A DNA stretch of 64,000 bases from Deltaproteobacteria bacterium CSP1-8 (lineage in GTDB: Bacteria; Desulfobacterota; Deferrimicrobia; Deferrimicrobiales; Deferrimicrobiaceae), in contig LDXO01000003.1 in NCBI GenBank assembly GCA_001443455.1, positions 65,627 to 129,626 on the forward strand, given 5' to 3'. The number at the start of each line of letters is the position of its first letter. The stretch's first letter is position 1. Both the position numbers and the translations under genes were made by a program. The notes under the pieces are model-generated. The model ran no database searches and was not told where the DNA came from. It worked only from the letters and a program-made list of their open reading frames with translations. Below, piece after piece: positions 60,484-64,000 of this stretch.

Positions 60484-60681
60484 ATGGCAAAGTGGACGAT
60501 GGAAGAGGTGCTGCGCCTGGCGCTCCGGCACGAGATGGAAAACTTCGGGGAGTACAAGAAGGCCTCGGAGGAAATGAAGAATCCGGCGATCCGGTCGATG
60601 TTCAAGTTCCTGGCGGAGGAAGAGAAGAGACACATCAAGCTCATCCGGGACAAGATGACCGAGTTCAAGGTGAAGGAGTAG
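60484..60681 (+). CDS. Half-size ferritin-like (rubrerythrin-like) two-helix protein
   Basis: 65 residues, two helices. The first carries Glu in 'LRHEMENFGEYKKA'; the second has 'FLAEEEKRHIKLI' with an ExxH pair. That is one half of the diiron site of ferritin-like proteins, so the protein must dimerise to build the site, as in encapsulated ferritin. No encapsulin gene is in the window. It sits 13 bases before iscS, and 62817 encodes a relative. It may hold iron or guard against oxygen for Fe-S assembly. Confidence 0.8.
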   Translation: MAKWTMEEVLRLALRHEMENFGEYKKASEEMKNPAIRSMFKFLAEEEKRHIKLIRDKMTEFKVKE

Positions 60682-60694
60682 GCGGGGGTTGCCG

Positions 60695-61906
60695 TTGGCG
60701 CACATTTTCTTCGACCATATCTCCACCACGCCCCTCGACCCCCGCGTGCTCGAGGCGATGATGCCGTACCTCACCGAGTGGTACGGCAACCCGTCGTCCC
60801 ACATCCACGACCAGGGGCAGCGGGCGGTACAGGCGGTGGACGCGGCCCGGGCGGAGGTCGCACGCTTTGTCAACGCCAACCCGCAGGAGATCGTCTTCAC
60901 CTCCGGCTCGACCGAGGCGAACAACCTGGCGATCAAGGGCGCGGCGGCGGCCTGCGCAAAGAAAGGGAAGCACCTGGTGGTCTCCGAGGTGGAGCACTTC
61001 TCCGTGTTGAACGCCCTCCCGCCCCTTCGGAACCGGGGATACGAGGTCACAACCCTTTCGGCCGACAGCGACGGGAAGGTGGACCCGGACGACGTGCGGC
61101 GGGCCATCCGCCCCGACACGGTACTCGTCTCGGTGATGCACGCCAACGCGGAGATCGGAACGATCGAACCGATCGGGGAAATCGGGCGGATCACGAGGGA
61201 GCGGGAAGTCCTCTTCCACACGGACGCGACCGCGTCGGCGGGCCACATCCCGCTCGACGTCCGGGAAGCGGGAGCGGATCTTGTCACCCTGTCCGCGCAC
61301 AATTTCTACGGACCCAAGGGGACCGGCGCCCTCGTGGTGCGGGAGGGGGTGCGTCTCGATTCCCAGATCGACGGCGGATTCCAGGAGATGGGCTTCCGCG
61401 CCGGGACGGAAAACGTGCCCGGCATCGCAGGGATGGGCAAGGCGGCCGCGATCGCCTCCTCGGAGATGGGGGAGTGGGCGTCGCACCTTCGCCGGCTGGA
61501 GAAGAGGCTGCGCGACGGCATCGCTTCCTCGGTTACGCATCTCCACTTCACCGGCCACCCCACGGACCGTCTCCCGGGCCACGTGAGTTTCTGGGTCGAG
61601 TACGCGGAGGGCGAGTCCCTGCTGCTGTTCCTCTCCGTCCACGGCGTGATGGCGGCCTCGGGGTCGGCGTGCAGCTCGAACCTGAAAGGGAGGGACGAGG
61701 AGGACCTGGTCGCCTCCCACGTGCTCCGTGCGATCGGGGTCCCGAGCGACATCTGCACGGGGTCGATCACCTTCAGCATGGGGAAGGGGAACACCGAACA
61801 AGAGGTGGACCACGTCCTGTCCGTCCTGCCGGGAATCGTCAGGCGTCTCTGGGAGATGTCGCCCACCTATCTCGACTACCAGAAGAAGATCCTGCAGGGA
61901 GGGTAA
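60695..61906 (+). CDS. iscS: IscS-like protein lacking the PLP lysine
   Basis: 403 residues. The aminotransferase-like fold is intact ('FFDHISTTPLDPRVLEAMMP', 'FTSGSTEANNLAIKG', 'VEHFSVLN', active Cys326 in 'ASGSACSS', closing 'MSPTYLDYQKK'). But the lysine that holds PLP is Asn203 ('LSAHNFYGPKG'). Ala180 replaces Gln183 of E. coli IscS and Ala152 replaces Asn155, both PLP contacts. From memory this matches IscS of Archaeoglobus fulgidus ('DATAS'), which lacks PLP and desulfurase activity and serves as a cysteine-donating scaffold with IscU. TTG at 60695 has GGGGG six bases upstream; TTG at 60689 is an alternative. Confidence 0.88.
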   Translation: MAHIFFDHISTTPLDPRVLEAMMPYLTEWYGNPSSHIHDQGQRAVQAVDAARAEVARFVNANPQEIVFTSGSTEANNLAIKGAAAACAKKGKHLVVSEVEHFSVLNALPPLRNRGYEVTTLSADSDGKVDPDDVRRAIRPDTVLVSVMHANAEIGTIEPIGEIGRITREREVLFHTDATASAGHIPLDVREAGADLVTLSAHNFYGPKGTGALVVREGVRLDSQIDGGFQEMGFRAGTENVPGIAGMGKAAAIASSEMGEWASHLRRLEKRLRDGIASSVTHLHFTGHPTDRLPGHVSFWVEYAEGESLLLFLSVHGVMAASGSACSSNLKGRDEEDLVASHVLRAIGVPSDICTGSITFSMGKGNTEQEVDHVLSVLPGIVRRLWEMSPTYLDYQKKILQGG

Positions 61907-61912
61907 AGGGCC

Positions 61913-62296
61913 ATGGCGAGCGGACCGTACAGCGCGAAGGTGATGGACCACTTCATGAACCCGAGGAACGTCGGCGAGATCGAGGACGCCAGCGGCGTCG
62001 GCGAGGTCGGCAACCCTGCCTGCGGCGACATGATGCGCCTCTACCTCAAGGTCGAGGGCGGCAGGATCGTGGACGCGAAGTTCCGCACGTTCGGGTGCGG
62101 GGCCGCCATCGCCTCGAGTTCCATGCTGACGGAGATGATCAAGGGGAAGACGGTCGAGGAGGCACGGGCCATCACGAATCGGCACGTCGCCGACGCGCTC
62201 GACGGCCTCCCCGCCGTGAAGATCCACTGCTCGGTCATGGCGGAGGAGGCGGTGAAGTCCGCCCTGGACGATTACGCGAGAAAGAACCCCGCCTGA
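61913..62296 (+). CDS. iscU: Fe-S cluster scaffold IscU
   Basis: 127 residues. Cluster ligands are Cys37 ('NPACGD', with Asp39), Cys62 ('TFGCGAAIASSS') and Cys106 ('KIHCSVMAEEAV'), all intact. The loop after Cys106 lacks the LPPVK chaperone motif of E. coli IscU, which hscA binds; 'GLPAVKIHC' is close. It starts six bases after iscS. No iscA, hscA or hscB is present. Confidence 0.94.
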   Translation: MASGPYSAKVMDHFMNPRNVGEIEDASGVGEVGNPACGDMMRLYLKVEGGRIVDAKFRTFGCGAAIASSSMLTEMIKGKTVEEARAITNRHVADALDGLPAVKIHCSVMAEEAVKSALDDYARKNPA

Positions 62297-62317: not shown

Positions 62318-62839
62318 ATGCTGGACCGCAACGTGATCGAAATCCTTAAGGTCGCCCTCGCCCACGAGGAGCGGGCGAAGACGTTTTACGAGGGGCTGGC
62401 CCGCCGTCAGGGAGACAACCCCGCGGGGGACCTGTTCGCCTTCCTCGCGGAGGAGGAGGATGGGCACATCCGCAAGCTTTCCGCGAAGCACGGGATATCC
62501 GCCTCCGTCGCAGCTTGGGGAGAGAAGGTTTTGCCGTACATGATCGACCTGGACCGGCTCGCCTGGGAGGAAGGGATCGAGGCAGGGGGCGCCGAAGGTC
62601 CCGATGCGCTGCGGAAGGGGCTCTTGGTCGCGAAGAAGGCGGAGGCACATGCGATTGCTTTCTACCACCAGGCCGGGAAAGCGGTCGAGGACAGGGAGAC
62701 GGGGGAACTTCTTTCCCAACTGGAGTCCGAGGAGAGGATTCACCTTGCGAAGATCGAGGCATTCCTGAAAGACCTGGAAGAGCCCCGCGGGGCCATCAAC
62801 CGTTCCGGAGGCAGACATGAAGACGACGAACCCGATTGA
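62318..62839 (+). CDS. Ferritin-like four-helix protein (rubrerythrin type, no rubredoxin domain)
   Basis: 173 residues. Four helices with Glu/His ligand patterns 'LAHEERAKTFYEGL', 'FLAEEEDGHIRKL', 'KKAEAHAIAFYHQAG' and 'LESEERIHLAKI', a full diiron site in one chain. The rubredoxin-like domain of classic rubrerythrin is absent. Its last 23 bases overlap the next small ferritin-like gene. Likely roles are peroxide reduction, iron handling or sensing. Confidence 0.85.
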   Translation: MLDRNVIEILKVALAHEERAKTFYEGLARRQGDNPAGDLFAFLAEEEDGHIRKLSAKHGISASVAAWGEKVLPYMIDLDRLAWEEGIEAGGAEGPDALRKGLLVAKKAEAHAIAFYHQAGKAVEDRETGELLSQLESEERIHLAKIEAFLKDLEEPRGAINRSGGRHEDDEPD

Positions 62840-63017
62840 CGTGATCCGGATGGCGCTGGAGCGCGAGAAGATGGCGGTCCGGGACTACTCGGAATTCGCG
62901 AAGACGGCCACGGAGCCGTCGATCCGGGAGATGTTCCTCTTCCTGGCGGAGGAGGAGGAAAAGCACGTGAAGCTCCTGCAGGACGAGATCGACCGGGAGG
63001 TCAATCAGGAGATGTAG
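62817..63017 (+). CDS. Half-size ferritin-like two-helix protein (second)
   Basis: 66 residues. The same two-helix pattern as 60484-60681: 'MALEREKMAVRDY' and 'FLFLAEEEEKHVKLL' with one ExxH. The two copies flank iscS-iscU and the full ferritin-like gene. It overlaps the previous gene by 23 bases and ends 9 bases before cysS. Confidence 0.8.
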   Translation: MKTTNPIDVIRMALEREKMAVRDYSEFAKTATEPSIREMFLFLAEEEEKHVKLLQDEIDREVNQEM

Positions 63018-63026
63018 GGCCCCCCC

Positions 63027-64000
63027 ATGCTTTCCCTCTACGACACCGTTTCCCGGAAGAAGGTTCCGCTTGATCCCCTCCGGCCGGGGCGTGTCGGGGT
63101 ATATACGTGCGGCCCCACGGTGTACCGCTACGTCCACATCGGGAACCTGCGGACCTACCTGCTGACCGACCTGCTCCTGCGGGCCGTCCGGTTCGCCGGC
63201 CTCACGCCGTTCTCCGTCCAGAACATCACCGATATGGGGCATATGCACCAGGAGGCGCTTGAGCGGACGGAGGACAAGGTGATCGCCGCCGCCCGGGCTA
63301 TGGGGAAGACGGCGCGGGAGATCGCGGAGTTCTTCACCGGGGCGTTTTTCCGGGATTGCCGCCGGATGAACTTTCTTCCGTCCGACGTCTACCCGCGCGC
63401 GTCGGCCCACGTCCCCGAGATGATCGCGGTGGCGGAGGAGCTGGAGAGGAAGGGAGCCACCTACGGAGAGGGCGGGTACCTCTATTTCGACGTGACGAAG
63501 GCGAAGGGATACGGGGAGCTGTCCGGCGCGATCCTGGGGAAGGGGGAGGCGGCCGGCCGCACGGACGGGTCGATCCACCGCCGCAAGAGGCGCCCGGAGG
63601 ACTTCTCGCTGTGGCTTGCGGCGGAGCCCGGGCGGGAGTTCTGCTGGGAGAGCCCGTGGGGCGTCGGCTGGCCCGGATGGCACATCGAGTGCGCGGCGAT
63701 GGCGGGGAAGTACCTGGGGCCGGAGTTCGATATCCATGTGGGAGGCGCAGACCTTCGGTTTCCCCATCACGAAAACTCCCGGGCGATGGCGATGACGGCC
63801 ACCGGGGGGCGGTTCGCCTCCCTCTGGGTGCACGCGGCGCATCTGCAGGTCGACGGGCGCAAGATGTCCAAGTCGCTGAAAAACGAATATACGCTCGACG
63901 ACCTCGAGGCCCGGGGGGTGGACCCGATGGACTTCCGGTACCATTGCCTCACCCTCCATTACCGGACGCCGATGAACTTCACCTGGGAGGCGCAGGCGGC
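63027..64000 (+). CDS. cysS: Cysteinyl-tRNA synthetase (N-terminal part, runs off the window)
   Basis: About 324 residues are visible and the frame is open at the end. The class I start 'TCGPTVYRYVHIGNLRTYL' holds the HIGN version of HIGH, then zinc ligands Cys28-like and Cys in 'WHIECAAM', and His in 'FPHHENSRAMA'. The KMSKS loop is in 'DGRKMSKSLKN'. The loop 'NITDMGHMHQEALERTEDK' marks the GHM-type subgroup. It lies just after the Fe-S genes, fitting a cysteine-centred cluster. Confidence 0.92.
   Translation, partial: MLSLYDTVSRKKVPLDPLRPGRVGVYTCGPTVYRYVHIGNLRTYLLTDLLLRAVRFAGLTPFSVQNITDMGHMHQEALERTEDKVIAAARAMGKTAREIAEFFTGAFFRDCRRMNFLPSDVYPRASAHVPEMIAVAEELERKGATYGEGGYLYFDVTKAKGYGELSGAILGKGEAAGRTDGSIHRRKRRPEDFSLWLAAEPGREFCWESPWGVGWPGWHIECAAMAGKYLGPEFDIHVGGADLRFPHHENSRAMAMTATGGRFASLWVHAAHLQVDGRKMSKSLKNEYTLDDLEARGVDPMDFRYHCLTLHYRTPMNFTWEAQA

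Follow-up and report, generated by a model that had tools for sequence, protein, structure and literature searches.

The iscS-like gene of the window (the whole 64,000-nucleotide stretch of DNA that was analysed) encodes an IscS/MisS homologue that carries asparagine at the position of the pyridoxal phosphate (PLP)-binding lysine, and belongs to a large bacterial clade in which this lysine is consistently missing (K-less IscS, as opposed to the K-bearing enzymes). The most probable reading, to which we assign a likelihood of roughly 60%, is that K-less IscS works as a PLP-independent co-scaffold, which lends its loop cysteine to IscU while sulfur is supplied from outside as sulfide or persulfide. 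We infer a loss of desulfurase activity, a role as cluster ligand and a sulfur source external to the protein.

The gene spans positions 60695 to 61906 of the forward strand, the strand on which all window features described below are located, and encodes 403 amino acids from a TTG start; ATG, GTG or TTG occurs at the equivalent of TTG-60695 in most relatives examined from the organism's own family (f1; the sister family is denoted f2). The deduced protein matched PF00266 (E 8.6e-80), showing the aminotransferase class V fold to be present, and scored below the NCBIfam cut-offs for NifS (449.9 vs 530.75 bits) and IscS (383.1 vs 643.2). Its AlphaFold2 model (mean pLDDT 87.8) displayed an IscS fold, and Foldseek searches with this model matched IscS/NFS1 structures (TM approximately 0.9), with A. 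fulgidus IscS showing the top identity (47%) among the structural matches listed. The low-confidence segments of the model, 227-238 and 325-337 (the Cys loop and its insertion), were as would be expected of mobile loops.

At the residue level, the preliminary description of this DNA had reported an AAT codon in place of the lysine of SxHK, alanines at two further PLP contacts, an intact catalytic cysteine and an IscU-binding C-terminus, and each of these features was recovered. Asn203 (AAT, 61301-61303), at the position of E. coli Lys206, was read directly within the motif SAHNFYG, and Ala152 (61148-61150, HANAEIG) and Ala180 (61232-61234, HTDATAS) occupy the positions of E. coli Asn155 and Gln183. 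Cys326 (61670-61672, SGSACSS), equivalent to the loop cysteine Cys328, is preserved, and the C-terminal tail, LWEMSPTYLDYQKK, resembles the IscU-binding tail. A further loss, absent from that description, affects E. coli Arg354, replaced by Thr359 (61769-61771), while His101 (60995-60997) and Asp177 (61223-61225) correspond to E. coli His104 and Asp180. In addition, the Cys loop contains an insertion of about seven residues (NLKGRDE, 61679-61699), common to families f1, f2, f26 and f55.

A read-level error at position 61301, earlier raised as a possible refutation, was excluded, since relatives share the loss. The lysine was missing in every relative at 66-91% identity, with Asn in nearly all of them and His in G226 (L007, L036) and L037; among 14 distinct f1 sequences, the residue was Asn in 13 and His in one, the codons read among relatives being AAT, AAC or CAT. 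Moreover, dN/dS values (Nei-Gojobori) were 0.11-0.18 when the window gene was compared with six relatives and 0.10-0.18 when these relatives were compared with one another, and the gene is therefore under purifying selection (0.10-0.18). Nothing beyond the codon change itself speaks for a sequencing error or a decaying pseudogene, and both were ruled out, with practically no residual likelihood, by the intact frame, by these omega values and by conservation in numerous assemblies and families. The lysine was likewise missing from more distant homologues (45-57% identity) spread over many families of the phylum, where Q, P, T, S, L, M or A takes its place, and V was found at this position in one Omnitrophota genome, so that K-less IscS was distributed over 23 families of the phylum plus this single genome. 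A single-species oddity was discarded on the basis of these 23 families. The earlier claim of a loss in a bacterium was thus upheld, but the trait is not peculiar to one bacterium and is instead the hallmark of a large clade of bacteria.

The 59 bacterial K-less sequences included in the phylogenetic tree formed one clade (support 97/90), whose sister was the K-bearing sequence of PDB 9wep. When the tree was rerun without the diagnostic columns, as a safeguard against circularity, support was 82/79 for the K-less clade and 100/98 for the group formed by this clade and 9wep. A. fulgidus IscS2 was placed outside the bacterial K-less clade, and a joint clade was not rejected (AU p 0.342).

The alignment with archaeal and bacterial IscS that had been proposed earlier comprised 99 proteins, 37 K-bearing and 62 K-less (61 bacterial plus A. 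fulgidus), and bore out the loss of the lysine in the window gene. Lys206, Gln183, Asn155 and His205 were present in all 37 K-bearing sequences, and Arg354 in 32 of the 32 that could be scored. Among K-less sequences, Lys206, Gln183 and Arg354 were each found in 0/62, Asn155 and His205 were kept in 16/62 and 26/62, respectively, and Cys328, His104 and Asp180 were present in 62/62. The lysine that covalently anchors the cofactor, one of the cofactor's contacts and the substrate arginine have therefore been lost jointly, while the cysteine has remained fully constrained. In E. coli IscS, the K206A and Q183E variants showed no desulfurase activity and R354K was fully active (PMC9978102). Taken together, the residues point to a protein incapable of desulfuration and kept for its cysteine and its partnership with IscU.

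Despite the loss of Lys, Gln and Arg, the equivalents of His104 and Asp180 (His101 and Asp177 in the window protein), which belong to the PLP pocket of active enzymes, are invariant in the K-less set. This invariance is accounted for neither by a co-scaffold role nor by a persulfide relay (discussed below), and it counts against the former, as some ligand may still be bound in the pocket; the PLP left in E. coli IscS K206A and the full activity of R354K (PMC9978102) weigh in the same direction. PMP-dependent sugar dehydratases have His in place of the lysine. A K-less IscS that still carried out PLP/PMP chemistry would agree with the retention of H104 and D180 (in f1 also of S203, H205 and T76), with the His found at the lysine position in L007, L036 and L037, and with the fact that E. 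coli IscS K206A retains some PLP (PMC9978102). The residues at the lysine position across the K-less set are, however, diverse (Q, N, P, T, S, H, D, M, L, A and V), a range that makes a PMP-type enzyme unlikely; H205 is lost in 36/62 sequences and R354 and Q183 in all, and no common chemistry fits, so that we regard this possibility as very improbable.

The gene for the IscU/MisU scaffold (127 amino acids, 61913-62296) starts six bases past the iscS stop codon, in agreement with the earlier statement that iscU lies beside the K-less gene. It encodes all the expected ligands, with cysteines in NPACGD, FGCG and IHCS, the Asp, and an intact LPxVK motif, and across the clade almost every IscU that accompanies a K-less IscS has likewise retained its Cys and Asp ligands. 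Three rubrerythrin/encapsulated-ferritin-like proteins bracket the iscSU pair in the window, two of them single hairpins of about 65 residues: a 65-residue rubrerythrin/ferritin-like hairpin protein immediately upstream of iscS (60484-60681), conserved in f1/f2; a rubrerythrin-like protein of 173 residues (62318-62839), present in some members; and a 66-residue rubrerythrin/encapsulated-ferritin-like hairpin protein (62817-63017). Small rubrerythrin-like proteins flanked iscSU at 22/22 f1/f2 loci examined, were adjacent to iscSU in these two families only, and are possible iron donors or peroxide scavengers. The cysteinyl-tRNA synthetase gene cysS (63027-64000, continuing beyond the window; KMSKS and HIGH-type motifs) follows directly downstream of the iscSU cluster, an arrangement that is syntenic in most f1/f2 members. 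In genomes of f55 and f26, a UPF0047 (YjbQ-like) gene was found just 3' of the K-less iscSU (L125, L126, L127, L161, L163).

The Fe-S assembly inventory was analyzed in 17 f1/f2 genomes. In 13 of them, many being 96-100% complete, a single NifU_N protein was found and SufB/D core proteins were absent, and gene coordinates showed that the sole NifU_N gene adjoins the K-less iscS in 13/13 cases. All 17 genomes lacked a detectable A-type carrier (PF01521). Outside these families, one IscU without SufB/D was found in G019, G175, G312, G011 and G355, the lone IscU of G355 not being adjacent to iscS. The arrangement is not universal within f1, as seen in four genomes: G226 has a SufB-like protein beside a SufC-like ATPase, SMS-like (L119), G344 contains SufB/D, G363 has neither the iscSU pair nor SufB/D, and G382 carries an IscU homologue (L122) with no IscS within the 14 kb examined. 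The L119 locus belongs to a congeneric genome assembled as a single contig and encodes an SmsB/SmsC-like pair, with a C-terminal CGIC in the SmsC-like protein. Absences in the window organism's own genome are weak evidence by themselves, because its assembly is 79% complete. In f1 the iscSU pair is probably the main, and usually the only detectable, machine for de novo Fe-S assembly. Since it is the only detected Fe-S builder in several near-complete relatives, sulfur probably reaches it from elsewhere.

In order to identify a second, intact IscS, a search suggested by the preliminary description, the organism's own genome was screened, and a K-bearing IscS was found beside IscR and MnmA (L002). 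Its location with mnmA and not with iscU points to tRNA thiolation, which it presumably serves. Another K-bearing IscS lies beside a gene of Cys/Met metabolism (L003), and K-bearing IscS was present in nearly all f1 genomes examined. This presence in own and related genomes is what would allow the enzyme encoded beside IscR and MnmA to feed IscU directly, with the K-less protein as a merely regulatory or stabilising partner; yet the iscU-adjacent gene in f1 is the K-less one, the K-bearing gene has the tRNA-thiolation context just described, no K-bearing IscS of the L002 type was detected in the f2 genome G247, and the invariant cysteine would be left without explanation, all of which makes direct feeding rather improbable. 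The L002 enzyme nevertheless counts against the co-scaffold reading in another way, as it could act as a persulfide provider.

A gene cluster for sulfite reductase was found in the same genome together with TusA, an Rrf2 regulator and a CysK-like gene, its neighbours, identified by reading the sequence, also including putative siroheme and sulfate-transport genes. Across the clade, TusA (PF01206) occurred within 4.5 kb of iscSU at 12/70 K-less loci, belonging to 10 of 23 families (L049, L054, L057, L059, L060, L062, L064, L065, L067, L079, L081 and L193), and DsrE_2 near iscSU at six of these loci (6/70), while neither was found near the 31 K-bearing loci (16 families), some of which were without iscU. 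By family, the difference in TusA was 10/23 against 0/16 (one-sided p 0.0018, for families that are not phylogenetically independent), and the association of TusA with K-less iscSU is suggestive only.

These neighbours bear on the main rival explanation, a persulfide relay, in which Cys326 would take a persulfide from a TusA/DsrE-like carrier or from a K-bearing IscS and pass it to IscU. The contrast between K-less and K-bearing loci, the invariance of the loop cysteine and the presence of K-bearing IscS in nearly all f1 genomes examined are in its favor. In E. coli, IscS passes sulfur on to TusA, and a relay would run the opposite way; such a reverse flow was not documented in the open-access literature examined. 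Moreover, no TusA was found beside iscSU in f1, the window's own family, so that gene neighbourhood by itself does not establish a TusA relay as the explanation in f1; several f1 genomes had no TusA detected anywhere, and the family comparison ignores phylogenetic non-independence. We consider the relay unlikely, and it may hold in some branches of the clade.

The co-scaffold reading fits a supply of sulfide from elsewhere, a source with which the sulfite reductase and the TusA neighbours seem compatible. In anaerobic E. coli, H2S can substitute for IscS, IscU still being required (PMC13015791). Given the A. fulgidus precedent, the most economical mechanism is one in which the cysteine acts as a ligand to the cluster on IscU and sulfur comes from elsewhere. 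In such a mechanism, MisS would be PLP-independent and would no longer desulfurate cysteine, joining IscU in an IscS-IscU assembly complex; the cysteine of its mobile loop would reach the IscU site as the fourth cluster ligand, possibly serving also as a persulfide acceptor, and IscU, with its three Cys and Asp, would assemble the cluster from Fe2+ and externally supplied sulfur, either persulfide or sulfide, the latter taken up from the environment or produced by assimilatory sulfite reduction.

In archaea, a PLP-less IscS is already known (A. fulgidus IscS2) and another has been proposed (M. acetivorans IscS1), and no description of a bacterial one, or of one as sole detected system, was found in the open-access literature, the coverage of which was incomplete; the breadth of PLP-less IscS in bacteria, and its occurrence as the sole detected system, appears to be new. 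A broader proposal, to which we give slightly less than even chances, is that Fe-S clusters are built throughout a bacterial lineage by one machine without a working cysteine desulfurase, the IscS fold having become a Cys-donating co-scaffold or relay fed by sulfide or TusA-type carriers. Cysteine desulfurase activity is usually counted as part of bacterial ISC-type Fe-S assembly, including the minimal ISC system (MIS). The K-less clade offers a natural test of an essential role of IscS beyond sulfur release, as cluster ligand or platform, and of cluster assembly fed by sulfide or persulfide, as has been suggested for early anaerobes.

Among known systems, the closest characterised case is A. 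fulgidus IscS2 (PDB 4eb5 and 4eb7 with IscU, 4hvk, and 4r5f with D199K), which has no desulfurase activity and contributes a Cys as ligand of the [2Fe-2S] cluster on IscU (PMC7585200). The precedent named in the preliminary description is sound, 4eb5 having Asp at the Lys position. Both proteins have the lysine replaced, Ala for Gln183 in HxDATAS, and Arg354 lost, while keeping the loop cysteine and an IscU partner; unlike the window protein, the A. fulgidus one is archaeal, retains Asn155 and is without the loop insertion. In Methanosarcina acetivorans IscS1, the essential lysine is reported missing and an A. fulgidus-like action was proposed (PMC7585200), but this protein is also archaeal and its host has other IscSU copies, one of them shown to be active, in addition to SufBC. 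With E. coli IscS (ISC) the window protein shares the fold, the loop cysteine, a similar C-terminal tail and the IscU partner, and differs in the loss of K206, Q183, N155 and R354 and in that A-type carriers, IscA included, were not detected. The cysteine desulfurase of PDB 9wep, the closest K-bearing sequence, keeps the full active-site set, unlike the window IscS. The MIS (MisS-MisU) shares with the window pair its two components, IscS and IscU, and the lack of A-type carriers; MisS is described there as a cysteine desulfurase (PMC12192291, PMC11559095), whereas the window protein is a MisS without the catalytic apparatus.
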